A stretch of DNA of 43,614 nt from Ceratorhiza oryzae-sativae (taxonomy: Eukaryota > Basidiomycota > Agaricomycetes > Cantharellales > Ceratobasidiaceae): the NCBI GenBank assembly GCA_030998015.1, contig JARWMV010000121.1, positions 1 through 43,614 on the forward strand, given 5' to 3'. Positions within the stretch are counted from its first letter, which is position 1. Every line of letters begins with the position of its first letter. The notes under the pieces were generated by a model that worked only from the letters and a program-made list of their open reading frames with translations, made no database searches and was not told the origin of the DNA. Made by a program: the position numbers and the translations under genes. Below, piece after piece: positions 1 through 43,614 of this stretch.

Positions 1-687
1 AGACACAGACTCCGATAAGACCAGGAATCCCGGAAAACATGTTTTCCGGGATTCAGCGCGCCTTATTTCCCCCCCCCTGAATACTAAGGCGGGGCGGGGT
101 TGGGCAGCACCCATTGCCGTCCTGCCACCGCGCTTAGGCCGCCCTTCGGGCGATCAAAGAGCGCGGTGGGGCAAGATTATGGCAACTACCCCGCCGCCGT
201 ATGGACTTTGAGGAGCCGGCCCAGCTAGGGGACTTATCGTGGTTGGGAGGAGTCCTGAGGGACCCATCAGGACGTTGCCGAACGGCTAATTTCCCCAGGG
301 TTATCCAATACTGACTATGTCAGTACTGTGGAGGGAGAGATGAAGATTAATCTCCATCCTGGAAGACTTACTGCGCTTGGAGATTCCACCACCAAGCACG
401 GTAGCGTAGGTCCCTAAGTTAAATTTGGGTTATAGGAGTTGTGAATACCAAACTCCCTTCGGTAGCAACCTCTACTACGTCGTTCCCATCAAAAGGAACG
501 AGGTTTTATTACTTTTTTTTGTTCATGTCTGGAAACCCCAAAATAAAGCGTTAACTAGCATGCGGCCTCATGCTTCAGGCTAGGGCAGCCTCATCTTTCG
601 TGTGGTTGACAATGATTCGATCTTAACTATATCGGGTCAGAGTGCAATTTAGGACGCACAAAAAGAATAAAATAAAAAATATAAATT
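1..687. other. Noncoding, hairpin-rich stretch upstream of nad4L
   Basis: I found no gene here. It holds a perfect 30-nt palindrome at 25-54, a run of nine C at 68-76, a CCGCGC/GCGCGG-stemmed element at about 126-172 of the family seen throughout the window, and several mid-sized hairpins at 300-480. I searched by eye for conserved rRNA strings (530 loop, peptidyl-transferase loop, 3' end of the small subunit) and saw none. A diverged RNA gene or the nad4L leader remains possible. The inverted copy is 8000-8686. Confidence 0.5.
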
Positions 688-954
688 ATGAATCTTTCAA
701 TAATACTGTTTTTAATTGGAATTTTAGGATTTATATTGAATAGAAAAAATATTATCCTATTAATCATTTCCATCGAGATAATGTTACTAGCTGTAACATT
801 ACTTGTTTTAATTAGTTCTTTTGGTTTCGATGATAACATCGGTCAAACATTCGGTGTATATATTATAGCAATAGCTGGAGCAGAGTCAGTTATAGGATTG
901 AGTATTTTAGTAGCATATTATCGATTAAGCAAATTAACTTTATTTATAATTTAA
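688..954 (+). CDS. nad4L: NADH dehydrogenase subunit 4L
   Basis: Encodes an 88-residue protein, the usual size for fungal Nad4L (NuoK homologue), a core proton-pumping membrane subunit of respiratory complex I in the inner mitochondrial membrane. Three hydrophobic helices are evident at about residues 2-17, 22-44 and 55-77. The two acidic residues expected within helices are present: Glu30 in SIEIMLL and Glu66 in AGAESVIGL, equivalent to the NuoK glutamates important for proton translocation. The start is an ATG after an A/T-rich leader and the stop is TAA. It is uninterrupted, unlike its neighbours, and matches its inverted copy. The next feature, three bases after the stop, is a short hairpin element and then a 5'-truncated endonuclease ORF. 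Confidence 0.96.
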   Translation: MNLSIILFLIGILGFILNRKNIILLIISIEIMLLAVTLLVLISSFGFDDNIGQTFGVYIIAIAGAESVIGLSILVAYYRLSKLTLFII

Positions 955-956
955 TG

Positions 957-993
957 ACTTGAGGCGGAGCTGCGATCGTAGGCGGGCACGGGT
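957..993 (+). repeat. Short GC-rich hairpin, family C
   Basis: A 37-bp element with the core GAGCTGCGATCGTAGGC, abutting the nad4L stop and the first codon of HE-1A. Other copies lie at about 1774-1810, 2674-2709 and 27826-27861, with a fused form at about 39887-39935. In HE-1A and HE-1B it sits at the same codon, so it either predates their duplication or used the same site twice. Confidence 0.8.
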
Positions 994-1402
994 GAGAAAC
1001 ACAACAACCTTACTGAAATCATGGGGAAATGTTAGCAATAACGACCGAATTAATTCTTATATTCACCCTAAAAGCTTAACAATATCCACAGGGCCTAAGA
1101 ACCTGGAATCAATTAAACCTAATAACGAGTGCAAGGCATTAGTTCCGTACTCCGAAGGGTTAGGTTCTACTATAGGTATGCGACTATCTACTTTCGCTTT
1201 ATCACAATTTAAACTGACAGCTGACCCCCAATGATTGCAATGCGCGCCACAAAACTTGTGGCGCCATTGACCCCAAACAAATGCAGCTACGCTGCATTGT
1301 TTGGGGGGTCAATGGTAATGAGACGAGATGGGACATTTTATTGTTACCTAACTACCAGAAGTTTACCTTGTCTTAACGAACTGTATGAAGCCTTCACAGT
1401 TG

Positions 1403-1486
1403 ACCCCCAATGCTTTACAGCATGTTGGGGGGTAATTGCCCCCCCAAACAATGCAGCGTAGCTGCATATGTTTGGGAGGGCAGTTG
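1403..1486 (+). mobile_element. Hairpin insert with 5-bp duplication AGTTG
   Basis: Two hairpins beginning ACCCCCAATG and ending GGGAGGGC are flanked by AGTTG at 1398-1402 and 1482-1486. Removing one AGTTG and the insert (84 bp) joins TTCACAGTT to GATGGT, giving FTVDGKK. HE-1B reads FTVNGKK at the same place without an insert. The paralogue thus supplies the pre-insertion site. The mirror copy is 7201-7284. Confidence 0.8.
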
Positions 1487-1514
1487 ATGGTAAAAAATGT
1501 GTAACAATGTCTAT

Positions 1515-1614
1515 TGCCCCCAAATTGGGGGTGTAGATTTGCCTGCGCAAATCACCCCCAATTTAGGAGTCCTCAGCGCTTAGGCCGCGCCTAAAGGCGC
1601 GATCAGAGAGTTGG
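1515..1614 (+). repeat. Composite hairpin insert in HE-1A
   Basis: About 100 bp beginning CCCCCAAATTGGGGG, with an inner hairpin around TTTGCCTGCGCAAA, then the CGCTTAGGCCGCGCC element. The same composite occurs at about 3096-3190 in HE-1B, at a different codon, and at 5498-5592 and 7073-7172 in mirror. No clear target duplication could be read at this copy. Confidence 0.75.
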
Positions 1615-1866
1615 AAGAAATACATCACGCCGCAGGCCCTTGCTATATGGAGCCAAGATGACGGAGGCCGAATGGGTTCCGGTTTCGTTCTATGTACTCA
1701 TTCTTTCAGTTTAACTGAACAACAAATTCTTCAACAAATCCTTTTGAGTAAATTTGGTTTAAGTACAAATATAACTTGAGGCGGAGCTGCGATCGTAGGC
1801 GGGCACGGGTAAGGAAACATTCTATGGACTTATTTCGAAATATTGTAAGTCCTTATTTTGGATCTC

Positions 1867-2038
1867 CCGCGCGCGTTAGTTGCTGGTGGGACTTGTCCCA
1901 CCAACCAACGTGAGCAATCGCAACCGTTTGCGATTGCTAGTGCGCGGCATAATATCGATATTTAGCCGCCGGCTGAAAATGACGAACGGTCGTCATTTTC
2001 TACGAGGGAATCTTTAGGATTCCCTCTAACGCCGGCGG
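1867..2038 (-). repeat. 172-bp two-lobed hairpin element (TLE), copy 1
   Basis: Defining description of the family, read from the CCGCCGGC end. Lobe 1 is closed by CCGCCGGC/GCCGGCGG and holds two hairpins (GAGGGAATC/GATTCCCTC and GAAAATGACGA/TCGTCATTTTC). A linker carries the palindrome AATATCGATATT. Lobe 2 is closed by CCGCGC/GCGCGG and holds two more hairpins (AGCAATCGCAA/TTGCGATTGCT and GGTGGGAC/GTCCCACC). Both lobes are three-way junctions. Strand '-' means the CCGCCGGC end lies to the right. This copy truncates the HE-1A C terminus. Confidence 0.93.
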
Positions 2039-2327
2039 GTATAAATTAAGTTCCGTTTAGCTTCAGCCAATTTTGATAAAATATTTCATTATATTTCATT
2101 AATTCAGTACTCCTCTGTGTAAAATAACAAACTCCCCTCCTCAGCGCGGTAGCTAGGGGTCTATTATTTGCGGAACCCGCTACCACGCGGCGGTTGTTCT
2201 GTGTCTATGTCATTCTTATTTATAAAGTTAATAATTTCTTGGTCCTGGATTAATTCTACATTGGAACCAACCGTAGAACCGGGGCATGGCGGCCTACGCC
2301 CCGGAATATATATCCACGCAATTCACT
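2039..2327. other. Unassigned AT-rich stretch before the group I intron core
   Basis: No ORF or tRNA recognised. It includes a bulged hairpin around 2145-2190 (GGTAGC/GCTACC) and a GGGGC/GCCCC hairpin at 2279-2302. It should contain the 5' part of the intron and possibly the end of an exon, but I could not place a 5' splice site. Confidence 0.4.
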
Positions 2328-2590
2328 AAATGCTGGGACGTATCATGATAACTAATAATGTTAATAATTATTTAAAATGTTGTCAAGATGTCATTTGTTT
2401 TGATCTTATGACATAACCAATCAGCAGGCTTTATGAAGCCTCAGAGACTACACGTGAGTCTGTTATTTATAACACTTGCCGGCCTAACAGTATCCACTTG
2501 TCTAATTTTATTCAAAGCGGGTACTTAAAAGTTCTAGTTGGTGTTGTAATTCTTAGCTACGGAAACATTTAACAGAAGATATAGTCCGAC
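2328..2590 (+). ncRNA. Group I intron catalytic core (P, Q, R, S)
   Basis: The four classical group I elements are present in order. P is AAATGCTGGGAC at 2328-2339. Q is AACCAATCAGCAGG at 2415-2428, whose CAGCA can pair with TGCTG of P (P4/P6 region). R is TCAGAGACTA at 2441-2450. S is AGAAGATATAGTCC at 2574-2587. P7 forms between GACTA of R and TAGTC of S. A small P6 extension hairpin (GGCTTTATGAAGCC) lies between Q and R. About 120 bases separate R and S, so the P8 loop carries no ORF. HE-1B begins just downstream and would be its 3'-side ORF. Which gene it interrupts is not visible here. The mirror copy is 6101-6360. Confidence 0.75.
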
Positions 2591-2710
2591 CCTGAATGGT
2601 AATCTATATTTAAGAATAAGGGTAAATTGGGGTTTTGTAAGAGGGAATATTTCACTAATGACTTAATGACACGCTTGAGGCGGAGCTGCGATCGTAGGCG
2701 GGCACGGGTG

Positions 2711-3752
2711 AGAAATACTTTAGTTTCACTTAAATCTTGGGGAACAATTAGTAATGCTGACCGAATTGCTTCATACCCCCGCTTAGGGTCAACCAGCATT
2801 GTATTTATATATAAATACATGCTGTTGACCCGTGGGTATGGTTATCGAGGCCGCGTTCGCGGCGAGGTATTGCGAGGTACCCTGGAACTTTCAGTTCCAG
2901 GGTACCTCGGAATCAGACGCCGCGCGCACGCCAGGGCCGCCTTGGCTTGATTATTGACCTTAAGGTCAATATGAGCCAAGCTTGCTTGGCTTAAGCCAAG
3001 GCGTTCGCAGGCGTGCACGGGTCATATATCTACCCCAAAGATGTAACCATTTCCACAGGTTCACGTAATCTTGATTATGTTAAACCTAATCAAACCCCAA
3101 ATTGGGGGTGTAGATTTGCCTGCGCAAATCACCCCCAATTTAGGAGTCCTCAGCGCTTAGGCCGCGCCTAAAGGCGCGATCAGAGAGTTGGAATTGTATT
3201 TCGTTAATACCATACTCCCTTGGTTTAGGGTCTACAGTAGGAATGAGATTACCTACTTCTGTTCTATCTGAAATTAAATTAACGGCTGAAGCAATGTCAA
3301 TTCTAGCGGGTTCTCTTCTAGGTGATGGGAGTATTAGAAAACCTTCAACTAATGGAGCTCCTCAGTGGAGATGCAACGTTGGGTTGCTCCATATAGAATA
3401 TCTTCTATCACTCGAGAATGCATGTAGATTTGGCGTCCCATCAATGGGACACCAAATCATGCACTCTCGGCCGCGCCGGCCGCGCTGGGGACGCCCGAAA
3501 TGCGATTTCCAAAAACACCCCCAAACATCAATCCTTGACATTTCCTAAGGAATTGTCAAGGAATGGCAGTTTGGGGGGTCAATGGTGAGAAGAAGAGACG
3601 GCTCATATTATTGTTATTTAACTACTAGAAGTTTACCTTGTCTTAACGAACTGTTAAAGGTATTTACAGTTAATGGGAAAAAATATGTTACAATGGCTAT
3701 AGCGGAATATATCACACCGCAAGCCTTGGCTATTTGTTGGGGTTGGTTAAAA
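2711..3752 (+). pseudogene. HE-1B: broken LAGLIDADG homing endonuclease
   Basis: It is homologous to HE-1A and better preserved in the middle. Coding pieces are: 2711-2775 (SLKSWGTISNADRIASY); 3027-3095 (PKDVTISTGSRNLDYVKPN); 3191-3439 (YSLGLGSTVGMRL, then first motif LAGSLLGDGSIRKPS and GLLHIEYLLSLE); and 3581-3752 (RRRDGSYYCYLTTRSLPCLNEL, VNGKKYVTMAIAEYITPQALAI, then out of register with a TAA stop). It ends before the second acidic motif that HE-1A retains as DDGG, so the C-terminal half of the nuclease is lost. Inserts at 2776-3026, about 3096-3190 and about 3440-3580 break the frame. It follows a group I intron core, so it was probably the intron's own ORF. Confidence 0.87.
2776..3026 (+). 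mobile_element. 246-bp composite hairpin element (family B) with TCATA duplication
   Basis: Starts CCCCCGCTTAGGGTC and ends GGCGTGCACGGG, flanked by TCATA at 2771-2775 and 3022-3026. Excision restores GCTTCATATATC (ASYI), matching NSYI of HE-1A. Internal parts in order: the GGGTCAAC/GTTGACCC hairpin with an AT-rich loop, GGCCGCGTTCGCGG, a GAGGTACCCTGGAAC/GTTCCAGGGTACCTC hairpin, the palindrome ATTGACCTTAAGGTCAAT, and AGCCAAG/CTTGGCT. Relatives lie at 11313, 14780, 16153, 19142, 25511 and in mirror, usually abutting a 172-bp element. Confidence 0.85.
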
Positions 3753-4101
3753 TAAACCTGCCTAGGCAACTGCGCTTTAGCGCACGTCTTGGCAGGGGTA
3801 ATTAAAAGAAGAGGAAGAAATTCCTTTTTAGCAGCGCAAAACATATCTATTGTAATAGGGTTCTTGGTTCTTAAACTATTTGAAGTTTATTACCCGTGCA
3901 CGCCTGCGAACGCCTTGGCTTGCCAAGGCGGCCCTGGCGTGCGCGCGGCTCGCCGCGAACGCGGCCTCGTTAACAATGCCCACGGGTCGTTGACCCTCCG
4001 CTTTATTACCCCTGCCAAGACGTGCGCTAAAGCGCAGTTCTCTAGGCAGGGCGGCTGAAATCTTGGGTTACACCTAAGATTTTAGCCGATAGAGCGGGGG
4101 C
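3753..4101 (+). other. Hairpin elements around an unidentified short coding-like stretch
   Basis: The order is a GCCTAGGCAACTGCGC/GCGCACGTCTTGGC element (3757-3797), an AT-rich stretch at 3798-3890 open in one frame (KRRGRNSFLAAQN, then IVIGFLVLKLF) that I do not recognise, and a short family B composite at 3892-4101 with a second GCCAAGACGTGCGC element nested in it. The open stretch might be a remnant of another endonuclease or of an exon; nothing decides this. Confidence 0.45.
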
Positions 4102-4273
4102 CCGCGCGCGTTAGTTGCTGGTGGGACTTGTCCCACCAACCAACGTGAGCAATCGCAACCGTTTGCGATTGCTAGTGCGCGGCATAATATCGATATTTAG
4201 CCGCCGGCTGAAAATGACGAACGGTCGTCATTTTCTACGAGGGAATCTTTAGGATTCCCTCTAACGCCGGCGG
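4102..4273 (-). repeat. TLE copy 2
   Basis: Unnested 172-bp copy. It lies 53 bases from the axis of palindrome 1, and its mirror (4415-4586) faces it across the tip. Confidence 0.93.
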
Positions 4274-4414
4274 AAAATAAACAAAAAATGGCCCGTAGGG
4301 CGCCCTACGGGCTTGGCCAAAACCACCCCCAAACAATGCAGCGTAGCTGCACATGTTTGGGGGTGTTTTGGCCAAGCCCGTAGGGCGCCCTACGGGCCAT
4401 TTTTTGTTTATTTT
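4274..4414. other. Axis of palindrome 1: candidate hairpin telomere
   Basis: Symmetry centres on base 4344. Outward from the axis: loop GTA (4343-4345), stem GCAGC/GCTGC, an asymmetric internal loop, CCCCCAAA/TTTGGGGG (4326-4333 with 4356-4363), then TTGGCCAAAA with its partner, GCCCGTAGGGCGCCCTACGGGC on each side, and finally a TLE on each side. The innermost 38 bases are a copy of the C-rich hairpin family found all over the window. As a single strand this would fold into a continuous closed end. Whether it is a true molecular end is inference. Confidence 0.6.
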
Positions 4415-4586
4415 CCGCCGGCGTTAGAGGGAATCCTAAAGATTCCCTCGTAGAAAATGACGACCGTTCGTCATTTTCAGCCGGCGGCTAAATATCGATA
4501 TTATGCCGCGCACTAGCAATCGCAAACGGTTGCGATTGCTCACGTTGGTTGGTGGGACAAGTCCCACCAGCAACTAACGCGCGCGG
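4415..4586 (+). repeat. TLE copy 3
   Basis: Mirror of copy 2 and the first copy on the single-molecule reading. Its CCGCCGGC end points to the tip. Confidence 0.93.
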
Positions 4587-4935
4587 GCCCCCGCTCTATC
4601 GGCTAAAATCTTAGGTGTAACCCAAGATTTCAGCCGCCCTGCCTAGAGAACTGCGCTTTAGCGCACGTCTTGGCAGGGGTAATAAAGCGGAGGGTCAACG
4701 ACCCGTGGGCATTGTTAACGAGGCCGCGTTCGCGGCGAGCCGCGCGCACGCCAGGGCCGCCTTGGCAAGCCAAGGCGTTCGCAGGCGTGCACGGGTAATA
4801 AACTTCAAATAGTTTAAGAACCAAGAACCCTATTACAATAGATATGTTTTGCGCTGCTAAAAAGGAATTTCTTCCTCTTCTTTTAATTACCCCTGCCAAG
4901 ACGTGCGCTAAAGCGCAGTTGCCTAGGCAGGTTTA
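4587..4935 (-). other. Mirror of the 3753-4101 hairpin stretch
   Basis: Inverted copy of the short family B composite, the unidentified open stretch and the GCCTAGGCAACTGCGC element. Confidence 0.45.
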
Positions 4936-5977
4936 TTTTAACCAACCCCAACAAATAGCCAAGGCTTGCGGTGTGATATATTCCGCTATAGCCATTGTAA
5001 CATATTTTTTCCCATTAACTGTAAATACCTTTAACAGTTCGTTAAGACAAGGTAAACTTCTAGTAGTTAAATAACAATAATATGAGCCGTCTCTTCTTCT
5101 CACCATTGACCCCCCAAACTGCCATTCCTTGACAATTCCTTAGGAAATGTCAAGGATTGATGTTTGGGGGTGTTTTTGGAAATCGCATTTCGGGCGTCCC
5201 CAGCGCGGCCGGCGCGGCCGAGAGTGCATGATTTGGTGTCCCATTGATGGGACGCCAAATCTACATGCATTCTCGAGTGATAGAAGATATTCTATATGGA
5301 GCAACCCAACGTTGCATCTCCACTGAGGAGCTCCATTAGTTGAAGGTTTTCTAATACTCCCATCACCTAGAAGAGAACCCGCTAGAATTGACATTGCTTC
5401 AGCCGTTAATTTAATTTCAGATAGAACAGAAGTAGGTAATCTCATTCCTACTGTAGACCCTAAACCAAGGGAGTATGGTATTAACGAAATACAATTCCAA
5501 CTCTCTGATCGCGCCTTTAGGCGCGGCCTAAGCGCTGAGGACTCCTAAATTGGGGGTGATTTGCGCAGGCAAATCTACACCCCCAATTTGGGGTTTGATT
5601 AGGTTTAACATAATCAAGATTACGTGAACCTGTGGAAATGGTTACATCTTTGGGGTAGATATATGACCCGTGCACGCCTGCGAACGCCTTGGCTTAAGCC
5701 AAGCAAGCTTGGCTCATATTGACCTTAAGGTCAATAATCAAGCCAAGGCGGCCCTGGCGTGCGCGCGGCGTCTGATTCCGAGGTACCCTGGAACTGAAAG
5801 TTCCAGGGTACCTCGCAATACCTCGCCGCGAACGCGGCCTCGATAACCATACCCACGGGTCAACAGCATGTATTTATATATAAATACAATGCTGGTTGAC
5901 CCTAAGCGGGGGTATGAAGCAATTCGGTCAGCATTACTAATTGTTCCCCAAGATTTAAGTGAAACTAAAGTATTTCT
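4936..5977 (-). pseudogene. HE-1B, inverted copy
   Basis: Mirror of 2711-3752 with the same pieces and inserts. No repair of any break is seen in this arm, so the breaks are not sequencing errors private to one arm. Confidence 0.87.
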
Positions 5978-6100
5978 CACCCGTGCCCGCCTACGATCGC
6001 AGCTCCGCCTCAAGCGTGTCATTAAGTCATTAGTGAAATATTCCCTCTTACAAAACCCCAATTTACCCTTATTCTTAAATATAGATTACCATTCAGGGTC

Positions 6101-6360
6101 GGACTATATCTTCTGTTAAATGTTTCCGTAGCTAAGAATTACAACACCAACTAGAACTTTTAAGTACCCGCTTTGAATAAAATTAGACAAGTGGATACTG
6201 TTAGGCCGGCAAGTGTTATAAATAACAGACTCACGTGTAGTCTCTGAGGCTTCATAAAGCCTGCTGATTGGTTATGTCATAAGATCAAAACAAATGACAT
6301 CTTGACAACATTTTAAATAATTATTAACATTATTAGTTATCATGATACGTCCCAGCATTT
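6101..6360 (-). ncRNA. Group I intron core, inverted copy
   Basis: Mirror of 2328-2587, with S reading GGACTATATCTTCT at 6101-6114 on the plus strand. It lies upstream of HE-1B on the minus strand. Confidence 0.75.
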
Positions 6361-6648
6361 AGTGAATTGCGTGGATATATATTCCGGGGCGTAGGCCGCC
6401 ATGCCCCGGTTCTACGGTTGGTTCCAATGTAGAATTAATCCAGGACCAAGAAATTATTAACTTTATAAATAAGAATGACATAGACACAGAACAACCGCCG
6501 CGTGGTAGCGGGTTCCGCAAATAATAGACCCCTAGCTACCGCGCTGAGGGGGGAGTTTGTTATTTTACACAGAGGAGTACTGAATTAATGAAATATAATG
6601 AAATATTTTATCAAAATTGGCTGAAGCTAAACGGAACTTAATTTATAC
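6361..6648. other. Unassigned stretch, mirror of 2039-2327
   Basis: No gene recognised. It differs from the other arm by a 1-bp indel in the C/G run near 6545-6553. Confidence 0.4.
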
Positions 6649-6820
6649 CCGCCGGCGTTAGAGGGAATCCTAAAGATTCCCTCGTAGAAAATGACGACCG
6701 TTCGTCATTTTCAGCCGGCGGCTAAATATCGATATTATGCCGCGCACTAGCAATCGCAAACGGTTGCGATTGCTCACGTTGGTTGGTGGGACAAGTCCCA
6801 CCAGCAACTAACGCGCGCGG
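6649..6820 (+). repeat. TLE copy 4
   Basis: Unnested; mirror of copy 1. It abuts the truncated C terminus of the inverted HE-1A. Confidence 0.93.
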
Positions 6821-7693
6821 GAGATCCAAAATAAGGACTTACAATATTTCGAAATAAGTCCATAGAATGTTTCCTTACCCGTGCCCGCCTACGATCGCAG
6901 CTCCGCCTCAAGTTATATTTGTACTTAAACCAAATTTACTCAAAAGGATTTGTTGAAGAATTTGTTGTTCAGTTAAACTGAAAGAATGAGTACATAGAAC
7001 GAAACCGGAACCCATTCGGCCTCCGTCATCTTGGCTCCATATAGCAAGGGCCTGCGGCGTGATGTATTTCTTCCAACTCTCTGATCGCGCCTTTAGGCGC
7101 GGCCTAAGCGCTGAGGACTCCTAAATTGGGGGTGATTTGCGCAGGCAAATCTACACCCCCAATTTGGGGGCAATAGACATTGTTACACATTTTTTACCAT
7201 CAACTGCCCTCCCAAACATATGCAGCTACGCTGCATTGTTTGGGGGGGCAATTACCCCCCAACATGCTGTAAAGCATTGGGGGTCAACTGTGAAGGCTTC
7301 ATACAGTTCGTTAAGACAAGGTAAACTTCTGGTAGTTAGGTAACAATAAAATGTCCCATCTCGTCTCATTACCATTGACCCCCCAAACAATGCAGCGTAG
7401 CTGCATTTGTTTGGGGTCAATGGCGCCACAAGTTTTGTGGCGCGCATTGCAATCATTGGGGGTCAGCTGTCAGTTTAAATTGTGATAAAGCGAAAGTAGA
7501 TAGTCGCATACCTATAGTAGAACCTAACCCTTCGGAGTACGGAACTAATGCCTTGCACTCGTTATTAGGTTTAATTGATTCCAGGTTCTTAGGCCCTGTG
7601 GATATTGTTAAGCTTTTAGGGTGAATATAAGAATTAATTCGGTCGTTATTGCTAACATTTCCCCATGATTTCAGTAAGGTTGTTGTGTTTCTC
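6821..7693 (-). pseudogene. HE-1A, inverted copy
   Basis: Mirror of 994-1866 with the same inserts and missing first motif. It runs 3' of the inverted nad4L on the same strand. Confidence 0.87.
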
Positions 7694-7732
7694 ACCCGTG
7701 CCCGCCTACGATCGCAGCTCCGCCTCAAGTCA

Positions 7733-7999
7733 TTAAATTATAAATAAAGTTAATTTGCTTAATCGATAATATGCTACTAAAATACTCAATCCTATAACTG
7801 ACTCTGCTCCAGCTATTGCTATAATATATACACCGAATGTTTGACCGATGTTATCATCGAAACCAAAAGAACTAATTAAAACAAGTAATGTTACAGCTAG
7901 TAACATTATCTCGATGGAAATGATTAATAGGATAATATTTTTTCTATTCAATATAAATCCTAAAATTCCAATTAAAAACAGTATTATTGAAAGATTCAT
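7733..7999 (-). CDS. nad4L: NADH dehydrogenase subunit 4L, inverted copy
   Basis: Encodes the same 88-residue protein as 688-954, with Glu30 and Glu66 present. On the single-molecule reading this is the one copy of the gene within 4344-27117, transcribed towards the left tip, on the same strand as tRNA-Asp, nad6 and tRNA-Asn. Confidence 0.96.
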   Translation of the reverse strand: MNLSIILFLIGILGFILNRKNIILLIISIEIMLLAVTLLVLISSFGFDDNIGQTFGVYIIAIAGAESVIGLSILVAYYRLSKLTLFII

Positions 8000-8711
8000 A
8001 ATTTATATTTTTTATTTTATTCTTTTTGTGCGTCCTAAATTGCACTCTGACCCGATATAGTTAAGATCGAATCATTGTCAACCACACGAAAGATGAGGCT
8101 GCCCTAGCCTGAAGCATGAGGCCGCATGCTAGTTAACGCTTTATTTTGGGGTTTCCAGACATGAACAAAAAAAAGTAATAAAACCTCGTTCCTTTTGATG
8201 GGAACGACGTAGTAGAGGTTGCTACCGAAGGGAGTTTGGTATTCACAACTCCTATAACCCAAATTTAACTTAGGGACCTACGCTACCGTGCTTGGTGGTG
8301 GAATCTCCAAGCGCAGTAAGTCTTCCAGGATGGAGATTAATCTTCATCTCTCCCTCCACAGTACTGACATAGTCAGTATTGGATAACCCTGGGGAAATTA
8401 GCCGTTCGGCAACGTCCTGATGGGTCCCTCAGGACTCCTCCCAACCACGATAAGTCCCCTAGCTGGGCCGGCTCCTCAAAGTCCATACGGCGGCGGGGTA
8501 GTTGCCATAATCTTGCCCCACCGCGCTCTTTGATCGCCCGAAGGGCGGCCTAAGCGCGGTGGCAGGACGGCAATGGGTGCTGCCCAACCCCGCCCCGCCT
8601 TAGTATTCAGGGGGGGGGAAATAAGGCGCGCTGAATCCCGGAAAACATGTTTTCCGGGATTCCTGGTCTTATCGGAGTCTGTGTCTAAATTTAGGGGCTT
8701 GACAATCCCAT
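8000..8711. other. Noncoding stretch between nad4L and tRNA-Asp
   Basis: 8000-8686 mirrors 1-687. From 8687 the sequence becomes single-copy in the window (AAATTTAGGGGCTTGAC...). No gene recognised. The T-rich run before the nad4L start corresponds to its 5' leader. Confidence 0.5.
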
Positions 8712-8784
8712 CGGGTCCTATCGGAATCGAACCGATATAATCCTAAGTGACGCTTAGGGGCTTTACCTATTAAGCTAACAACCC
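8712..8784 (-). tRNA. trnD: tRNA-Asp (GTC)
   Basis: A full cloverleaf can be read on the minus strand. The acceptor is GGGTTGT with AGGACCC (one G-G mismatch at the sixth pair and one T-G). The D stem is GCTT/AAGC, the anticodon stem CCTAA/TTAGG with loop GCGTCAC (anticodon GTC; C instead of the usual T at position 33), and the T arm ATCGG-TTCGATT-CCGAT. No CCA is encoded. The first three acceptor pairs are G-C, so there is no sign of the 5' tRNA editing known from some chytrids. It is the only gene in the single-copy segment between the palindromes. Confidence 0.85.
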
Positions 8785-11563: not shown

Positions 11564-11605
11564 ATAATTCCTTGTTCAAATCTCAAAATTACATTAGCAT
11601 TTTTC

Positions 11606-16403: not shown

Positions 16404-16437
16404 AACAGCTCTCATGAAACCTTCCACAGAAAGATGT

Positions 16438-34581: not shown

Positions 34582-34659
34582 GTCTGGCCTCTATCTCGGT
34601 CAACATCGTTCCGTGGTTTGCTTCCATGCAAGATTTATAAAATCTTGCTGGACCTGTAT

Positions 34660-34881
34660 CCGCCGGCGTTAGAGGGAATCCTCAGATGAGGTAGCCTTGA
34701 CCATGAGTCTCATGGTCCAGGCTACCTCCCATAAAGATTCCCTCGTAGAAAATGACGACCGTTCGTCATTTTCAGCCGGCGGCTAAATATCGATATTATG
34801 CCGCGCACTAGCAATCGCAAACGGTTGCGATTGCTCACGTTGGTTGGTGGGACAAGTCCCACCAGCAACTAACGCGCGCGG
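34660..34881 (+). repeat. TLE copy 27, nested
   Basis: Mirror of copy 14. Confidence 0.93.
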
Positions 34882-35092
34882 GCCCCCGCTCTATCGGCTA
34901 AAATCTTAGGTGTAACCCAAGATTTCAGCCGCCCTGCCTAGAGAACTGCGCTTTAGCGCACGTCTTGGCAGGGGTAATAAAGCGGAGGGTCAACGACCCG
35001 TGGGCATTGTTAACGAGGCCGCGTTCGCGGCGAGCCGCGCGCACGCCAGGGCCGCCTTGGCAAGCCAAGGCGTTCGCAGGCGTGCACGGGTC

Positions 35093-35264
35093 CCGCCGGC
35101 GTTAGAGGGAATCCTAAAGATTCCCTCGTAGAAAATGACGACCGTTCGTCATTTTCAGCCGGCGGCTAAATATCGATATTATGCCGCGCACTAGCAATCG
35201 CAAACGGTTGCGATTGCTCACGTTGGTTGGTGGGACAAGTCCCACCAGCAACTAACGCGCGCGG
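35093..35264 (+). repeat. TLE copy 28
   Basis: Mirror of copy 13. Confidence 0.93.
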
Positions 35265-35407
35265 ACGCTAAACCACGGTTCGACTCAAGCTTCGGAGCCG
35301 TCTGTGTACGGCTTAAGCCGCACACAGACGTCTCCTCTACAAGCGTGAAATTGTTGCACGTACGTGCAACAACTTCAGAGTAGTTGACACGAGATAGGGT
35401 AGGGGAA

Positions 35408-36149
35408 CTTAAGTTCTCCTTCTTCCCGTCTGCGGCCGTGTTCCTGGAACACGACCACAGACGCAGGTGACCCCCAAACTGCCATTTCTTGACAATTCCT
35501 TAGGAATTGTCAAGGAGCCTGATTCCGAGCTGCATCAGTTTGGGGGGTCAATGGCGCCACAAGTCTTGTGGCGCGCATTGCAATCATTGGGGAGCAGCTG
35601 AAAGGGAAGAACCTGGGTACCCCGCTTAGGCCGCCCTTCGGGCGATCAAAGAGCGTTAGAAGTGAGGGCAAAAGTGCGGTAACGAAATTTGACCGAGCCC
35701 TTCGGGGCTGAAGTAAAAACGCTCTTACGGATAGTGGTATCCCTTCGGAGTTTTCCCCAAAGACCGCGCCTTTCTGAGCATCATGGTCAAAAATCATGCA
35801 TGGCAACGGCCTCCCAATGCGTTACCAAGCCTGTAAGGCACGCCCTACGGGCCAGCGTATTGGGAGTGCCATTACCCGGGGTGGTTTTGGGCCCTAGTGC
35901 CCCCCAAACATGTGCAGCTACGCTGCATTGTTTGGGGGGCATCCACCCCCCAAATGAAGCAATTACGGGGCCTCTAAAATAGCTTTGCTATTTTAAGTGG
36001 CCCCTAATTGCATCATTGGGGGTCTACGGGCACTCTTTGCCCAACTATCTGGGATCTTCTGGTAATAAAAAAAAATAACACCCAGAACCCTTGAACACAT
36101 GTCCTGGGGCTCTGGATTGAATTTTCCTTACCTTGCTAGGTACGCTGCT
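35408..36149. repeat. Hairpin-element field
   Basis: Mirror of 18085-18826: GTCTGCGGCCGTGTTCC, TTGACAATTCCTTAGGAATTG, GCGCCACAAG, GGCCCGTAGGGCG and C-rich elements. No gene. Confidence 0.7.
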
Positions 36150-36371
36150 GAATCGGCGATCGTAAGCTCGTTTTCATTGTTGAGGTAACTCAACTTCTGA
36201 AAACGATCGGTTTGTATTACTCGGTTTCAGCTAGATCAAATAAAAACAAAAATAAACTTCTGGCTAGCTGGTGCAATAAAGTGTTCCATCAATACCCTAG
36301 TCAAATTGTGGTTAAGTTTCAAGGAAAACCTATCCTGTATAAAAATAAAATACTGGATTCAGCCTTTTTCG
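36150..36371 (+). pseudogene. Unidentified Lys/Asn-rich coding fragment
   Basis: Open from 36152 to the GTGGGCGGC hairpin at 36372, with KTIGLYYSVSARSNKNKNK, LASWCNKVFHQYPSQ and FQGKPILYKNK. Composition suits a mitochondrial ribosomal-protein or intron ORF. I cannot assign it. An in-frame TGA lies just upstream (36149). It precedes nad6 on the same strand. Confidence 0.4.
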
Positions 36372-36549
36372 CCTCGACTGTGGGCGGCTTTAGCCGCCCA
36401 CAGGCTCCGGCCCCTCCAAACAATGCAGCGTAGCTGCACATGTTTGGGGGGCAGAAGTCTGCGGTCGTGTTCATGGAACAAGACCACAGACGAGGTAAAA
36501 ACAAATATTTAGAAATGCGAAAGCATAGGCACAATTAAACAAAAAAAAA
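36372..36549. repeat. Hairpin elements and nad6 leader
   Basis: GTGGGCGGCTTTAGCCGCCCAC, C-rich AAACAATGCAGCG element, GTCTGCGG...ACAGAC pair, then an A-rich leader ending in ten A before the nad6 ATG. Confidence 0.7.
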
Positions 36550-37227
36550 ATGATAAACAACTTTTTATTAGACGTGTTAGCCGCTGGAGCTATCTTATCA
36601 GGTATTTTAGTTATTACTTCTAAAAACCCTGTAATTGCTGTACTTTTCTTAATTTCAGCTTTCTGCAACGCCGCAGGTTACCTAATCTTACTTGGAGTGG
36701 GCTTTGTAGGTATTTCATACATAATAGTCTACATTGGAGCCATAGCTGTGCTTTTCCTATTTGTAATTATGATGATTAATATTAATTTATCTGACATACT
36801 GGACATTGGAAGTCAGTATACAAAAAACCTACCTTTGGCTTTAACTGTAGGTTTTCTATTTACATATGAGATTTTCACAGTAATTCCCGTGAACTTCGGT
36901 AAAGTTGCTATATTAAATCTGCCTTTGGAATTATTAACTTATTTAAATGGATTACTATACGGTTCAACCGTTCCTTCAATATCTGATGTAAATATTTCCC
37001 AAAATCCGTATACTTGGGACATTTCAAGTTTTAGTTTCCTACAAGTAGAATCATTGGGCCACGGACTGTACACCTATGGAGCCCCATTGTTCATTTTATG
37101 TAGTATAATACTATTGCTTTCGATGTTGGCTCCTATTTCAGTTGTCCATTTAAAATCAAGTAATAACCAAAAAACTTATCAAACTTCTAACCCCTCCCAA
37201 ACCAGAAACTCTATTTCATTTAATTGA
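36550..37227 (+). CDS. nad6: NADH dehydrogenase subunit 6
   Basis: A 225-residue membrane subunit of complex I (NuoJ homologue). It starts at ATG directly after an A run. Hydrophobic helices are at about residues 5-23, 28-48 and 51-76, with further ones near 92-108 and 178-200. The conserved third helix is unmistakable: GFVGISYIIVYIGAIAVL then FLFVIMM, residues 51-75. The conserved-type region GHGLYTYGAPLFIL and the closing MLAPISVVHL match fungal Nad6. The last 25 or so residues (SNNQKTYQTSNPS...) are hydrophilic and may not be native. The only stop is TGA at 37225-37227. If TGA codes Trp here, as in most fungal mitochondria, the frame runs on into HE-3. Confidence 0.96.
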   Translation: MINNFLLDVLAAGAILSGILVITSKNPVIAVLFLISAFCNAAGYLILLGVGFVGISYIIVYIGAIAVLFLFVIMMININLSDILDIGSQYTKNLPLALTVGFLFTYEIFTVIPVNFGKVAILNLPLELLTYLNGLLYGSTVPSISDVNISQNPYTWDISSFSFLQVESLGHGLYTYGAPLFILCSIILLLSMLAPISVVHLKSSNNQKTYQTSNPSQTRNSISFN

Positions 37228-37629
37228 ACAAGATCAGTTAAACATAATCTTGGGCTCAACTCCGGTAATAGAGCTTCTTACCATACATCTTCTTACTCGG
37301 GTAAATTAGATCCTTGGGCTGTTACAGGTCTAGTGGATGCTGAGGGCTATTTTGGTTTCACTATTACAAAAAAAAGTGGGAGAAAACTAGGTTTCGAACT
37401 AAAACCCCAATTTTGTCTTCACATGCATGCTAGAGAGTATGATCTACTTGTCAGTTTAAAAGAATTCTTTGGGGTAGGTACAGTCACTTTAAGAAGTAAA
37501 GACGCGTATTATGCTGTATATTCTAAAAGGGATCTCGAAATTATTGTTCAACATTTTAAACTATTCCCTTTATTGACCTCAAAAAGAAATAGTTTCTTTA
37601 TATTTTTAATTGTTTTTGATATGTTCTGT

Positions 37630-37801
37630 CCGCCGGCGTTAGAGGGAATCCTAAAGATTCCCTCGTAGAAAATGACGACCGTTCGTCATTTTCAGCCGGC
37701 GGCTAAATATCGATATTATGCCGCGCACTAGCAATCGCAAACGGTTGCGATTGCTCACGTTGGTTGGTGGGACAAGTCCCACCAGCAACTAACGCGCGCG
37801 G
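37630..37801 (+). repeat. TLE copy 29
   Basis: Mirror of copy 12, in HE-3. Confidence 0.93.
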
Positions 37802-37835
37802 ACATCTTTCTGTGGAAGGTTTCATGAGAGCTGTT

Positions 37836-38086
37836 TCATACCCCCGCTTAGGGTCAACCAGCATTGTATTTATATATAAATACATGCTGTTGACCCGTGG
37901 GTATGGATATCGAGGCCGCGTTCGCGGCGAGGTATTGCGAGGTACCCTGGAACTTTAAGTTCCAGGGTACCTCGGAATCAGACGCCGCGCGCACGCCAGG
38001 GCCGCCTTGGCTTACATTGACCTTAAGGTCAATATGAGCCAAGCTTGCTTGGCTTAAGCCAAGGCGTTCGCAGGCGTGCACGGGTC
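37836..38086. repeat. Family B composite
   Basis: Starts after TTTCATA as at 2771-2775, but here its far end is fused to a TLE. Confidence 0.85.
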
Positions 38087-38258
38087 CCGCCGGCGTTAGA
38101 GGGAATCCTAAAGATTCCCTCGTAGAAAATGACGACCGTTCGTCATTTTCAGCCGGCGGCTAAATATCGATATTATGCCGCGCACTAGCAATCGCAAACG
38201 GTTGCGATTGCTCACGTTGGTTGGTGGGACAAGTCCCACCAGCAACTAACGCGCGCGG
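38087..38258 (+). repeat. TLE copy 30
   Basis: Mirror of copy 11 but without its extra CG. Confidence 0.93.
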
Positions 38259-38331
38259 AAACTATCTTAACAGACCATTAGAACCCGAGACATTAAACTC
38301 TATCACAGGGATTTACGGAAAACTACCATTG

Positions 38332-38431
38332 ACCCCCCAAACTGATGCAGCTATGCTGCATTGTTTGGGGGGGTAATGGCCCTCCCAATACGTTGGCCTT
38401 ACAGGCTTGGTAACGCATTGGGAGGTCATTG
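38332..38431 (+). mobile_element. Hairpin element pair with CATTG duplication
   Basis: 95 bp from ACCCCCCAAACTG to GGGAGGT, flanked by CATTG at 38327-38331 and 38427-38431. Removal joins CTACCATTG to TTAATC, matching the uninterrupted relative at 41345-41527 (YGALLELILTP). Mirror 15806-15905. Confidence 0.87.
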
Positions 38432-38565
38432 TTAATCTTACCGCCTGTTGTAAAGTATTCTAGTGTAACTATTCCAAGTCCTTGGTGGGTTATTGGGTTT
38501 ATATCCGGACAATCTAAATAAAGGTTTGCCTGAAGAATTGAAAATAGCGTTCACAAATGTTGTCC

Positions 38566-38645
38566 CTGTAGACCCCCAATGATTACATTATTGGGGGGCT
38601 ACTGCCCCTCAAACAATGCAGCGTAGCTGCACATGTTTGGGGGTC
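38566..38645 (+). repeat. C-rich hairpin insert in HE-3
   Basis: ACCCCCAATGATTACATTATTGGGGGG followed by a CTGCCCCTCAAACAATGCAGCG element. The coding text resumes as VERPEYG. Just downstream, 38680-38716 holds a short tandem repeat TTGCATGGTGGTCCAG. Confidence 0.7.
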
Positions 38646-38769
38646 AGTAGAGAGACCAGAGTATGGTTTCAACTGGTCCAGTTGCATGGTGGTCCAGTTG
38701 CATGGTGGTCCAGATGGAAATATACCTTATCCTATGTGGATCTCCGGGTTTGTTTCTGGAAAATGATAA

Positions 38770-39525
38770 CCTCGACTGTGGGCGGCTTTAGCCGCCCACA
38801 GGCTCCGGGCAGCGTAGCTGCACATGTTTGGGGGGCAGAAGTCTGCGGTCGTGTTCCTGGAACAAGACCACAGACGAGGTAGAAATAGTAATTCAAGTTT
38901 TTATCCTTAAAAATAAATTATTTGAAACTAATCTTAGTTACGAGGCTAACTTTTTTTAAAAGTTTATTTCTGAGTTGTCTCCTAATGATAAATATCCATT
39001 TAGGAAGACAAGCCAACTTTTAGGTCCGGGGTTCCAAGATTGGTCTTTCTGTCTCCGAGGGCTCCAGTGATGGACTCCTCAGCCGGGAAGTCGATTTGAG
39101 CTTTACTTCTATCCAGATATGGAAGAAACCGGACCTTTGGATTCTATTGTTCTCCGTATAGAGATGTAGACGATTCCAAAGTTAGGTCAGATTCCTAAAA
39201 TTTGAAGAAAGTTTTGAGTCCTATAATCGCCTGAATCATACCCCCGCTTATCGGCTGAAATCTTAGGTGTAACCCAAGATTTCAGCCGATAAGCGGAGGG
39301 TCAACGACCCGTGGGTATGGTTATCGAGGCCGCGTTCGCGGCGAGGTATTGCGAGGTACCCTGGAACTTTCAGTTCCAGGGTACCTAGGAATCAGACGCC
39401 GCGCGCACGCCAGGGCCGCCTTGGCTTAAGCCAAGGCGTTCGCAGGCGTGCACGGGTCATAAATTGTGTGGCAAATAGGGTATTCAAAACAACATAACTC
39501 GTGTTTTCACCTTTTTAATTTTTAA
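38770..39525. other. Hairpins, unassigned DNA and a family B composite
   Basis: GTGGGCGGC and GTCTGCGGTC hairpins to 38880. 38881-39236 is plain unassigned DNA. 39237-39457 is a family B composite with the ATCGGCTGAAATC hairpin. 39458-39525 is the AT-rich leader of HE-F. No gene. Confidence 0.5.
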
Positions 39526-40056
39526 ATGAGAAATATTACAAAATCACAATTTCACACTTTTTCTCCTCTTAGCCGAAAAATTATGACAAAAGAAGAACGA
39601 TCACTTTTTTCTTTATCTGCTGATTTAAAGGCCATATTGGTTGGTCTACTATTGGGAGACCTTTATGCTCGAAAACAAAAAAGAAGTGTAAATGCGTGTT
39701 TATGCTTCGAACAGGGACTTGTTCATGAGACTTATCTTTTCCATCTCTACGATTTATTTAAAAGTTACTGTCAATCAGCCCCCCAAACAAGTAATCGACT
39801 TCCTGATAAACGAACCGGTAAAATCTATGCTAGAGTCACATTTACAACCTGTGCATTACCTTGCTTTAATGAGTTATATGACCCGCGCACGCCAGGGCCG
39901 CAGCTTATAGCTGCGATCGTAGGCGGGCACGGGTAAGTGATCTACTTACTCCTATATCTTTAGCTTATTGGCTATGCGACGATGGTAGTTTTTGTAAATC
40001 AAGTCAAAGAGTTACTCTTTGTACAGAATCATTTACTTTCCCCACAGAATCGACGC
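39526..40056 (+). pseudogene. HE-F: LAGLIDADG endonuclease, N-terminal two-thirds
   Basis: An ATG start (MRNITKSQFHTFSPLS), MTKEERSLFSLSADLKA, an intact first motif ILVGLLLGDLYARK, then CFEQGLVHETYLFHLYDLFKSYC, NRLPDKRTGKIYARV, and ALPCFNELYD to 39886. A hairpin insert (39887-39935) replaces about 15 codons around KVVP. Then DLLTPISLAYW, LCDDGSF and TLCTESFTFPTE run to about 40052, where TLE copy 31 cuts in. The missing end matches fragment HE-G (EEVTLLVTVLNDKFGLK), 2.1 kb downstream on the same strand. It has the best-preserved N terminus of the family. Confidence 0.88.
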
Positions 40057-40228
40057 CCGCCGGCGTTAGAGGGAATCCTAAAGATTCCCTCGTAGAAAAT
40101 GACGACCGTTCGTCATTTTCAGCCGGCGGCTAAATATCGATATTATGCCGCGCACTAGCAATCGCAAACGGTTGCGATTGCTCACGTTGGTTGGTGGGAC
40201 AAGTCCCACCAGCAACTAACGCGCGCGG
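40057..40228 (+). repeat. TLE copy 31
   Basis: Mirror of copy 10. Confidence 0.93.
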
Positions 40229-40754
40229 GCCTTCGCAAAGCACCGATTCTTGACCCCCGATTTGCGCCAAATCGGACTCTTCCCTTACAGGCCCCCGCTA
40301 ATCGATACCCCTGCCAAGACGTGCGCTAAAGCGCAGTTCTCTAGGCAGGGTGTAGATTTGCCTTCGCAAATCATCGATTAGTGGGAGCCCTCCGCGCTTA
40401 GGCCGCCCTGCGGGCGATCAAAGAGCGCGGAGGGGAAGAGGTTCCCTAGCAGCGTGTACTTGTACACGCTGACGACAGGGTTAGGGTAGGAGATCTCAGC
40501 GCTTAGGCCGCCCTTCGGGCGATAAAAGAGCGCGTTAGAAAGAAGAAGTAAACTCCCCTGCAAAAAGCCTAGGTACAATTAATTATACCTAGGACTTTTT
40601 GCCGGTAGATCGCTAAAGCGGCCGTGGGCGGCAGGGGACTCCTAAGGATGCCCCTCAAACAATGCAGCGTAGCTGCACATGTTTGGGGGGCAGTAGGCGG
40701 GCGTTTGATTTATATCCTCTGCTAACTTCTATCCTCGCCCCTACAAATTGATGT
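40229..40754. repeat. Hairpin-element cluster
   Basis: Mirror of 13483-14008. No gene. Confidence 0.7.
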
Positions 40755-40976
40755 CCGCCGGCGTTAGAGGGAATCCTCAGATGAGGTAGCCTTGACCATG
40801 AGTCTCATGGTCCAGGCTACCTCCCATAAAGATTCCCTCGTAGAAAATGACGACCGTTCGTCATTTTCAGCCGGCGGCTAAATATCGATATTATGCCGCG
40901 CACTAGCAATCGCAAACGGTTGCGATTGCTCACGTTGGTTGGTGGGACAAGTCCCACCAGCAACTAACGCGCGCGG
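40755..40976 (+). repeat. TLE copy 32, nested
   Basis: Mirror of copy 9. Confidence 0.93.
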
Positions 40977-41344
40977 GCCTACGCAAAGCATCACCCCGCT
41001 AATCGATACCCCTGCCAAGACGTGCGCTAAAGCGCAGTTCTCTAGGCAGGGTGTAGATTTGCCTTCGCAAATCATCGATTAGTTGAGCCCTCCGCGCTTA
41101 GGCCGCCCTGCGGGCGATCAAAGAGCGCGGAGGGATTTGTAAGGAGCGTTCAGCGCTTAGGCCGCGCCTAAAGGCGCGATCAAAGAGCGTTAGAGAAATA
41201 GCTTTTTGACCCGAGCACGCCTGCGAACGCCCTGGCTTAAGCCAAGGCGGCCCTGGCGTGCGCGCGGCGTCTGATTCCGTCGGAATCAGACGCCGGCCGC
41301 GCTGGCGCCACAAGTTTTGTGGCGCGCATTGCAATCATTGGGGG
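40977..41344. repeat. Hairpin-element cluster
   Basis: Mirror of 12893-13260, including a truncated family B piece and the GGCGCCACAAG...ATTGGGGGTC element that abuts the next coding fragment. Confidence 0.7.
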
Positions 41345-41527
41345 TCACCGGCGACGGATTGTTTAAATAGACCCTTAGAAGCTGAAACATTAGAATCAGT
41401 CACATCTATCTACGGTGCGTTACTTGAATTAATTTTAACTCCTGTAATTAAATACACAAGCATAGTTTTACCAAACCCATGGTGGATCGTAGGATTTGTG
41501 AGCTTTAATACTATTTTAGTAAATTAA
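41345..41527 (+). pseudogene. Unidentified C-terminal coding fragment
   Basis: Reads LNRPLEAETLESVTSIYG, LLELILTPVIKYTS and LPNPWWIVGFVSFNTILVN, ending in TAA. The 38259-38500 stretch is a clear paralogue (LNRPLEPETLNSI, LPPVVKYSS, PSPWWVIGFIS), also closing at a TAA just after. WW.VGF resembles the start of a LAGLIDADG helix, but the shared stop argues for a C terminus. Family not recognised. Confidence 0.55.
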
Positions 41528-41650
41528 TGTGCGGAGAATAAAATAAAAGAGATGAAAACAACAATAATGCTTTTTGCTTGTAACATTGTAAATATGTTAG
41601 CCAATGTGCTACCTTCTCTTCGAATATCTCCTCTATTATTACCCTCGAGA
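41528..41650 (+). pseudogene. Unidentified AT-rich coding-like fragment
   Basis: MKTTIMLFACNIVN, MLANVLPSLRISPLLLP, then a TCGATGATTTGCC-type hairpin ends it. No family recognised; SLRI followed by hydrophobics recalls HE-D residues after its first motif. Confidence 0.35.
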
Positions 41651-42152
41651 ATCGATGTAGATTTGCCAGGGCAAATCATCGATTCTCGGCGAGGTATTGC
41701 GAGGTACCCTGGAACTTTAAGTTCCAGGGTACCTCGGAATCAGACGCCCGCCGCGCTGGGGACGACCGAATGCACCTTTACGGTGGTTTTGGGCCCTAGT
41801 GCCCCCCAAACATGTGCAGCTACGCTGCATTGTTTGGGGGGCATCCACCCCCCAAATGAAGCAATTACGGGGCCTCTAAAATAGCTTTGCTATTTTAAGT
41901 GGCCCCTAATTGCATCATTGGGGGTCTACGGGCATCCTCTAGCCCTCCGCGCTTAGGCCGCCCTGCGGGCGATCAAAGAGCGCGGAGGGGAAGAGGTTCC
42001 CTAGCAGCGTGTACTTGTACACGCTGACGACAGGGTTAGGGTAGGAGTTCTCTCTCTTCCCTTTCAGCTGCTCCCCAATGATTGCAATGCGCGCCACAAG
42101 ACGAGCCCCCCGCTCAGGCCGCCCTTCGGGCGATCAAAGAGCGCGTTAGAAA
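41651..42152. repeat. Dense cluster of short hairpin elements
   Basis: Mirror of 12085-12600. Together with 40057-41650 it forms the mosaic separating HE-F from HE-G. Confidence 0.75.
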
Positions 42153-42158
42153 GAAGAA

Positions 42159-42426
42159 GTAACTCTTTTAGTTACTGTCTTAAATGATAAGTTCGGGTTA
42201 AAATGTTACTTAAACAAACCCGCGGCCATAAGGACTTTGATTCCGAGGTAGCCTGGAACCTCGGGGGTCCAGGCTACCTCGCAATACCTCTAGCTACTGG
42301 AGGCCGCGTATCCGCCGGCTCCCGGCGGGGTTATGTAATCATAATACCCGCTTATTCAATTTCTGTGTTACAAGAATTGTTGGCTACTGAGATGAACCCC
42401 ATGATGAAATACAAAATTGGCTTAAA
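42159..42426 (+). pseudogene. HE-G: C-terminal LAGLIDADG fragment, probable end of HE-F
   Basis: 42159-42215 reads VTLLVTVLNDKFGLKCYL, preceded by GAAGAA. A GAGGTAGCCTGG hairpin cassette and others fill 42216-42330. 42331-42426 reads VIIIPAYSISVLQELL and PMMKYKIGL. The residues follow directly on those lost from HE-F at 40052, so the two are best explained as one gene split by a 2.1-kb mosaic. Confidence 0.8.
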
Positions 42427-42631
42427 TCCCCTCCTAGCCAGAACTCCATATGCGAAAAGCAACGGCCTCCCAATGCGTTACCAAGCCTGTAAGGCACGCC
42501 CTACGGGCCAGCGTATTGGGAGTGCCATTACCCCCCCAAACAATGCAGCATAGCTGCATCAGTTTGGGGGGTCAACTGCCATTCATCATCACATGCCCCG
42601 AAGGGCCCGAAAGGGATGATGGCCCCAGAGG
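42427..42631. repeat. Nested C-rich elements
   Basis: The GCGTTACCAAGCCTGTAAGGC element fused to a C-rich AAACAATGCAGC element, then CCCCGAAGGGCCCGAAAGGG hairpins. Mirror 11606-11810. Confidence 0.7.
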
Positions 42632-43272
42632 GAAAAATGCTAATGTAATTTTGAGATTTGAACAAGGAATTATTCATACCCCCGCTTAGGGTCAACCAGC
42701 ATTGTATTTATATATAAATACATGCTGTTGACCCGTGGGTATGGTTATCGAGGCCGCGTTCGCGGCGAGGTATTGCGAGGTACCCTGGAACTTTCAGTTC
42801 CAGGGTACCTCGGAATCAGACGCCGCGCGCACGCCAGGGCCGCCTTGGCTTACATTGACCTTAAGGTCAATATGAGCCAAGCTTGCTTGGCTTAAGCCAA
42901 GGCGTTCGCAGGCGTGCACGGGTCCCGCCGGCGTTAGAGGGAATCCTAAAGATTCCCTCGTAGAAAATGACGACCGTTCGTCATTTTCAGCCGGCGGCTA
43001 AATATCGATATTATGCCGCGCACTAGCAATCGCAAACGGTTGCGATTGCTCACGTTGGTTGGTGGGACAAGTCCCACCAGCAACTAACGCGCGCGGACCT
43101 TTTTCATTTGTATGTTTTATACAAAAATTATTGCTTGTCAGCTCCAACAACCTCTAACCGATTGCCTGACATAAGAACAGGGTGTACAATCGGGTAAGTT
43201 TTAACACTATGGCATTACCTTGTTTTAATGAACTTTATTGTCTTTTTTATTCTGATAAGAAAAAAGTAATTC
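42632..43272 (+). pseudogene. HE-H: LAGLIDADG fragment split by a family B element and a TLE
   Basis: 42632-42670 reads KNANVILRFEQGIIH. After 42674-43096 (family B plus TLE copy 33) it resumes LFHLYVLYKNYC, LSAPTTSNRLPDIRTG. Then a frameshift near 43190, then FNTMALPCFNELYCLFY and KKVIP to 43272. The order matches HE-D and HE-E. Both ends are missing. Confidence 0.82.
42925..43096 (+). repeat. TLE copy 33
   Basis: Mirror of copy 8. Confidence 0.93.
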
Positions 43273-43412
43273 CCCTACCCTATCTCGTGTCAACTACTCT
43301 GAAGTTGTTGCACGTACGTGCAACAATTTCACGCTTGTAGAGGAGACGTCTGTGTGCGGCTTAAGCCGTACACAGACGGCTCCGAAGCTTGAGTCGAACC
43401 GTGGTTTAGCGT
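43273..43412. repeat. GTTGCACGTACGTGCAAC hairpin group
   Basis: Mirror of 10825-10964. Confidence 0.75.
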
Positions 43413-43584
43413 CCGCGCGCGTTAGTTGCTGGTGGGACTTGTCCCACCAACCAACGTGAGCAATCGCAACCGTTTGCGATTGCTAGTGCGCGGCATAATA
43501 TCGATATTTAGCCGCCGGCTGAAAATGACGAACGGTCGTCATTTTCTACGAGGGAATCTTTAGGATTCCCTCTAACGCCGGCGG
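43413..43584 (-). repeat. TLE copy 34
   Basis: Mirror of copy 7. The window ends 30 bases later inside the adjoining family B composite. Confidence 0.93.
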
Positions 43585-43614
43585 GACCCGTGCACGCCTG
43601 CGAACGCCTTGGCT

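Follow-up and report, generated by a model that had tools for sequence, protein, structure and literature searches.

Mitochondrial DNA contigs of a likely Rhizoctonia relative fold back at natural stem-loops

The contig analysed here (C121, referred to as the window, 43,614 nucleotides and analysed as a whole) consists almost entirely of two long palindromes. This raises the question whether it represents a chromosome with closed ends or one product of a more widespread folding of mitochondrial DNA (mtDNA). A first interpretation made from the letters alone, the sequence-only reading, had taken it for a linear mitochondrial chromosome of 22.8 kb, closed permanently by a hairpin at either end and read round both tips. 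The parent assembly comprises 48,843,654 bases in 253 contigs, and a 1-kb probe from the window matched 25 other contigs, in 19 cases over the full length of the probe. Comparison with these contigs showed a general pattern that is worth retaining, namely that mtDNA contigs fold at natural stem-loops. The window is probably one of many such folded-back forms, which arose either in the cell or when the library was prepared.

Self-comparison of the window yielded inverted matches at 1–8686 (99.885%) and at 10623–43614 (99.867%), with axes at about 4343.5 (axis 1) and 27118 (axis 2). Only the segment 8687–10622 is unpaired, which confirms the earlier statement that two palindromes cover all but about 1.9 kb. 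Aligned over 4,343 columns, the left (1–4343) and right (4344–8686) arms of palindrome 1 differ by one mismatch and three gap positions; for the arms of palindrome 2 (arm A, 10623–27097; arm B, 27138–43614), the 16,481 columns contain 10 gap positions and not a single mismatch. The arm-against-arm alignments also confirmed that both palindromes keep their symmetry up to the window ends. Palindromes of this length cannot be due to chance. The length argument of the sequence-only reading carries no weight: in any contig with two axes, the unpaired segment is as long as twice the distance between the axes less the length of the contig. The differences between the arms are small insertions or deletions, several of them within nad6, and they are concentrated in one arm. 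Arm B is identical to one arm of contig C120 across 16,477 bases, and its alignments with the remaining three sequences (the other C120 arm, C109 and C152) have 0–3 gap openings. Arm A, which carries most of the private differences, shows 7–11 gap openings against the same four sequences. These differences look like consensus errors that are mostly private to one arm.

Axis 1 lies on a stem-loop (A1, 4317–4371, plus strand) and axis 2 on a double hairpin (A2, 27086–27149, plus strand). At both tips the sequence runs from the arm through the stem-loop into the reverse complement of the arm, as expected of a strand that turns round a closed hairpin; on this point the sequence-only reading was supported. 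Any fold makes its own axis hairpin-like, and the natural stem was therefore measured in the unfolded counterpart and is reported only for axes of which an ordinary version was available. For the seven axes that could be placed in this way (A1, A2, A3, A6, A7, A9 and A12), the natural perfect stems measure 12, 12, 11, 15, 21, 11 and 14 bp, respectively. As a background, 5,950 positions of C109 were scored alike, and stems of at least 11 bp were found at 10.3% and stems of at least 10 bp at 13.6% of them. The natural stem of A13, judged by eye, has 17 bp. A10 and A11 were not placeable, their arm being a dispersed repeat; copies of this repeat that bear the stem-loop have stems of 10 bp (11–12 in two variants) and the others of 4–7 bp. 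Because the stem-loops fall into a small number of families, the axes cannot count as fully independent of each other.

In the ordinary versions of A1 and A2, found in C109 and C152, the arm is followed by the stem-loop and then by another flank; in the folded versions the same stem-loop is followed by the reverse complement of the arm. At A2, A3, A9 and A13, the point where folded and ordinary versions diverge coincides to within one base with the stem's outer edge; at A1 they diverge within the last few stem bases. At the seven placed axes a short inverted repeat thus pre-exists in the unfolded DNA at the turn; the loop is retained once and the arm is repeated in reverse, with minor extra differences at A6, A7 and A12. 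Stem-loops are abundant, with about 70 sites having a stem of at least 11 bp in the 22.8-kb stretch between the two axes, and only some of them were observed folding. The A2 double hairpin itself is dispersed, and exact off-axis copies lie at 11333–11396 and 16173–16236, with mirrors at 42841–42904 and 38003–38066.

How often the stem-loops are folded or crossed was determined for A1, A2, A3 and A13. Each locus search scored 40 candidates; the numbers are therefore lower bounds, and they count contigs and loci, not molecule frequencies. A 744-base query ending at axis 1 gave at least 17 matches covering 650 bases or more. Two of these are the window's own arms, at least 11 (in 10 contigs) run on into one common other flank, and the remaining four (C120, C123 and twice C156) depart from the arm short of the axis. 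Among the matches listed, the A1 fold-back occurs in C121 only. With a 518-base query ending at axis 2, at least 24 matches covered 497 bases or more, nine from fold-backs in five contigs and 15 crossing. The A2 fold-back is present in at least five contigs, namely C121, C120, C127 and C195, each with both arms, and C212, where the second arm comprises just 111 bases at the contig start. Crossing of A2 was found at 16 or more loci in 14 contigs, counting C86, in which only 279 arm bases match. All 16 full-length loci of the other A2 flank among the matches listed adjoin the arm. The crossing sequence at A1 and A2 was read directly in C109 and C152, and the other crossings follow from adjacent coordinates. 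Three contigs fold at A3 and at least nine loci in seven contigs cross it (read in C67); at A13, four contigs fold and at least 15 loci, spread over 13 contigs, cross (directly read in C106 and C177). Altogether, 13 folded contig junctions stand against at least 51 crossing loci at these four stem-loops.

Folding is not confined to the two tips of the window. In total, the sequence was read at 29 fold-back axes from 25 contigs; judged by sequence, about 19 of these axes are distinct. Since the search for them started from A1 and A2, they form a biased, non-random sample. Eight axes from six contigs were compared at length (two each in C121 and C127, one each in C120, C109, C152 and C195). A further 23 candidate places were chosen from match coordinates, and 501–700 bases were examined at each. 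Twenty-one of them proved self-reverse-complementary, 20 over the entire stretch (96.0–99.8%) and that in C212 over the first 222 bases (88%). The two others are not palindromic. In C81, near 19,438, an axis had been predicted from match spacing and was rejected after inspection of the sequence; in C67, near 16,631, A3 is crossed. The symmetry axis of C67 lies at 40,831; A3 is folded in the right arm (65,031) and is crossed into other DNA in the left. This contig shows both states, crossed and folded, of one stem-loop. Match coordinates hint at one more possible axis, located near position 3,955 of C162.

These results bear directly on the proposed chromosome. Two axes on one contig and the closed-hairpin form of both tips speak for it. 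However, the same 22.8 kb lies within C109 (25,235–48,016) and C152 (4,333–27,115) with other DNA beyond both tips, and each tip is crossed at many loci, at least 11 for A1 and at least 16 for A2, so that in neither case do all copies end there. C120 carries tip 2 without tip 1. Moreover, many other stem-loops serve as turning points elsewhere, including three that are internal to the 22.8 kb and are crossed by the window itself: A9 (1264–1315, minus strand; mirror 7372–7423) is a fold-back axis in C67, A6 (12943–12971, minus strand; mirror 41266–41294) in C94, and A7 (14941–14993, minus strand; mirror 39244–39296) in C77. A 22.8-kb linear chromosome with two permanently closed ends is thus very improbable.

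We favour, at roughly an even chance, the explanation that in the cell two natural stem-loops allowed broken mtDNA ends to close, so that hairpin-capped or folded-back molecules came to exist alongside ordinary DNA. If a break or cut fell at the foot of a stem-loop, the strand would be free to pair with itself, and ligation, or copying from the 3′ end, could then join this strand to its own complement; the product would consist of the arm, the complete stem-loop and the arm's reverse complement. Alternatively, an extruded cruciform might be cut and sealed, which would give the same sequence with both flanks capped. A cellular origin is favoured because the placed axes sit on stem-loops, whereas the reading of complementary strands in succession should turn regardless of sequence, and because the A2 turn is common to five contigs, with C121 and C120 differing in their private errors. 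Short inverted sequences also flank human inverted duplications that have been attributed to fold-back (PMC3907307). As in our contigs, a short inverted sequence lies at the turn, the loop is kept once and the arm is reversed. Unlike the human case, the DNA here is mitochondrial, many sites are involved, the unfolded form occupies more contig loci and formation in the cell is putative.

The most serious rival is an origin at the bench, to which we assign somewhat less than an even chance. Fragment ends at stem-loops would close on themselves while ends are being repaired and ligated (or during amplification), be read as palindromes and be assembled; they could enter the assembly because mtDNA is sequenced very deeply. 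Several observations support this or weigh against formation in the cell. Fold-back reads make up 0.55–0.6% of Oxford Nanopore genomic reads and recur at the same places (PMC12870357), amount to 0.18–7.33% with ligation kits (PMC13141652) and are enriched in yeast mtDNA (PMC9054137). They are thought to originate in library preparation (PMC12870357, PMC13141652) and can tangle assembly graphs (PMC12870357). In our data, crossing loci exceed folded contigs at all four axes counted, and the private errors lie mostly in one window arm, resembling the poorer second half of fold-back reads (PMC9054137). Near the loop of A6, A7 and A12, a few bases also distinguish folded from ordinary versions, and the ordinary version of A12 is a 99% match and not an identical one. 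Finally, folding from the other flank, which cruciform cutting predicts, was found at none of the 15 (A1) and 16 (A2) full-length flank loci listed; for this reason self-pairing of ends appears the more plausible of the two routes. A15 (C125 and C92) was considered as a possible opposite flank of A13, a relation that would have spoken for cruciform cutting. This idea was rejected, since the two flanks match over about 139 bases before they diverge, A15 being a different copy of the repeat. The published artefacts share with our contigs the near-perfect palindromes and the recurrent places, and are enriched in mtDNA reads of yeast (PMC12870357, PMC13141652, PMC9054137); they differ in that the placed axes described here lie on natural stem-loops, with the stem-loop retained. 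In particular, the kind seen in yeast mtDNA, in which complementary strands are read in succession (PMC9054137), should turn independently of the sequence. The A2 turn shared by five contigs likewise speaks against the bench, as do three PacBio samples, including HiFi, with virtually none or very few such reads (PMC12870357), although the platform used here may differ. The assembly is probably built from long reads of one kind or another, since the longest of 20 sampled contigs has 1.49 Mb. The assembly alone cannot separate molecules made in the cell from those made at the bench.

Two further explanations can be largely set aside. A pure assembly error, in which strands were joined via short inverted repeats without any palindromic read, would fit axes that are short inverted repeats in repeat-rich mtDNA. 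However, a stem-loop of 30–60 bases is too short for long-read overlap, and the window spans repeats of up to 836 bp in three copies; we regard such an error as improbable. Similarly, long near-identical inverted copies in a likely basidiomycete mitochondrial genome recall the large inverted repeat of Termitomyces (PMC6609731), which is also found in basidiomycete mtDNA. The Termitomyces repeat is fixed between single-copy regions (PMC6609731), whereas the fold-back here is variable, without a spacer and without single-copy DNA past the stem-loop. The second arm is missing from many contigs, so the two copies, bordered by single-copy DNA, are not a feature of all molecules. A fixed repeat of this type is hardly credible.

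If fold-backs exist in the cell, mtDNA could survive breaks without telomeres, with dispersed hairpins serving as ends, and the fragmentation of the mitochondrial genome into many contigs would in part be explained. A more far-reaching version seems rather unlikely at present; in it, dispersed mitochondrial stem-loops would be conditional chromosome ends, broken or cut mtDNA would close on whatever stem-loop it came to, and the genome would be a shifting mixture of giant palindromes and linear pieces capped by hairpins, none of them with a fixed end. If the fold-backs are bench-made, assemblies of stem-loop-rich organelle DNA can contain dumbbell chromosomes that look convincing and are false. 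Sponges likewise have short stem-loops dispersed in their mtDNA, in the form of repetitive hairpin-forming elements (PMC2800124). A literature search on hairpin telomeres of fungal mtDNA found no report of them. Linear plasmids of Rhizoctonia solani such as pRS64 are small and have fixed closed hairpin ends. They come from the same fungal family, and their ends recall the closed-hairpin form of the tips described here; here the mitochondrial genome itself is concerned, and no end is fixed.

The gene content supports the mitochondrial origin proposed in the sequence-only reading. A Pfam scan of 28 of the 78 listed open reading frames (ORFs) of the window matched two families only, nad6 and LAGLIDADG, and judged by these predicted genes the stretch is mitochondrial DNA. 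The nad6 gene (36550–37668, plus strand, genetic code 4) is fused in frame with a LAGLIDADG domain and encodes a predicted protein of 372 amino acids; the window has other LAGLIDADG ORFs besides. Among the best 120 of 2,825 matches, few of which carry organism names, its nearest named relatives are Rhizoctonia sp. (63%, with 75% of the query covered) and R. solani (71%, with 55% covered). R. solani is classified in the Cantharellales, Basidiomycota; the DNA is thus likely to come from a Rhizoctonia relative, and the comparison with chytrids made previously appears unlikely to hold. Published Rhizoctonia mitochondrial genomes range from 109 to 236 kb and are treated as circular maps, and repeats account for 18–43% of five complete R. 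solani genomes (PMC8488467). Three transfer RNA (tRNA) genes were predicted in the window: tRNA-Asp once (8712–8784, minus strand), within the single-occurrence stretch 8687–10622, and tRNA-Asn twice as mirror copies (23146–23217, minus strand; 31017–31088, plus strand). Since nad6, LAGLIDADG families, tRNA-Asp and tRNA-Asn were all that was found with this coverage of ORFs, the stretch between the axes is not a gene-complete genome.

Some minor observations concern nad6 and the contigs that share tip 2. The pairing of nad6 with a LAGLIDADG domain also occurs in several database relatives (e.g. P0001, 94%). The nad6 copy of arm B is intact, and its length is common to most other full-length loci; in the copy of arm A (about 16877–17410, minus strand) a cluster of small insertions or deletions splits the gene into separate ORFs. 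C120 departs from the window near C120 position 4445 (left of window position 4415) at a GC-rich motif, an alternative joint at a repeat, and beyond this departure C120:4196–4342 shows a weak match to a cox1 exon, below the family cut-off. In C127, one arm lacks about 234 bases of the other arm (window 19119–19353), located between direct repeats of about 150 bases. Position 43614 of the window is the shared end base of C121, C120 and C127, and it falls within the 836-base repeat.

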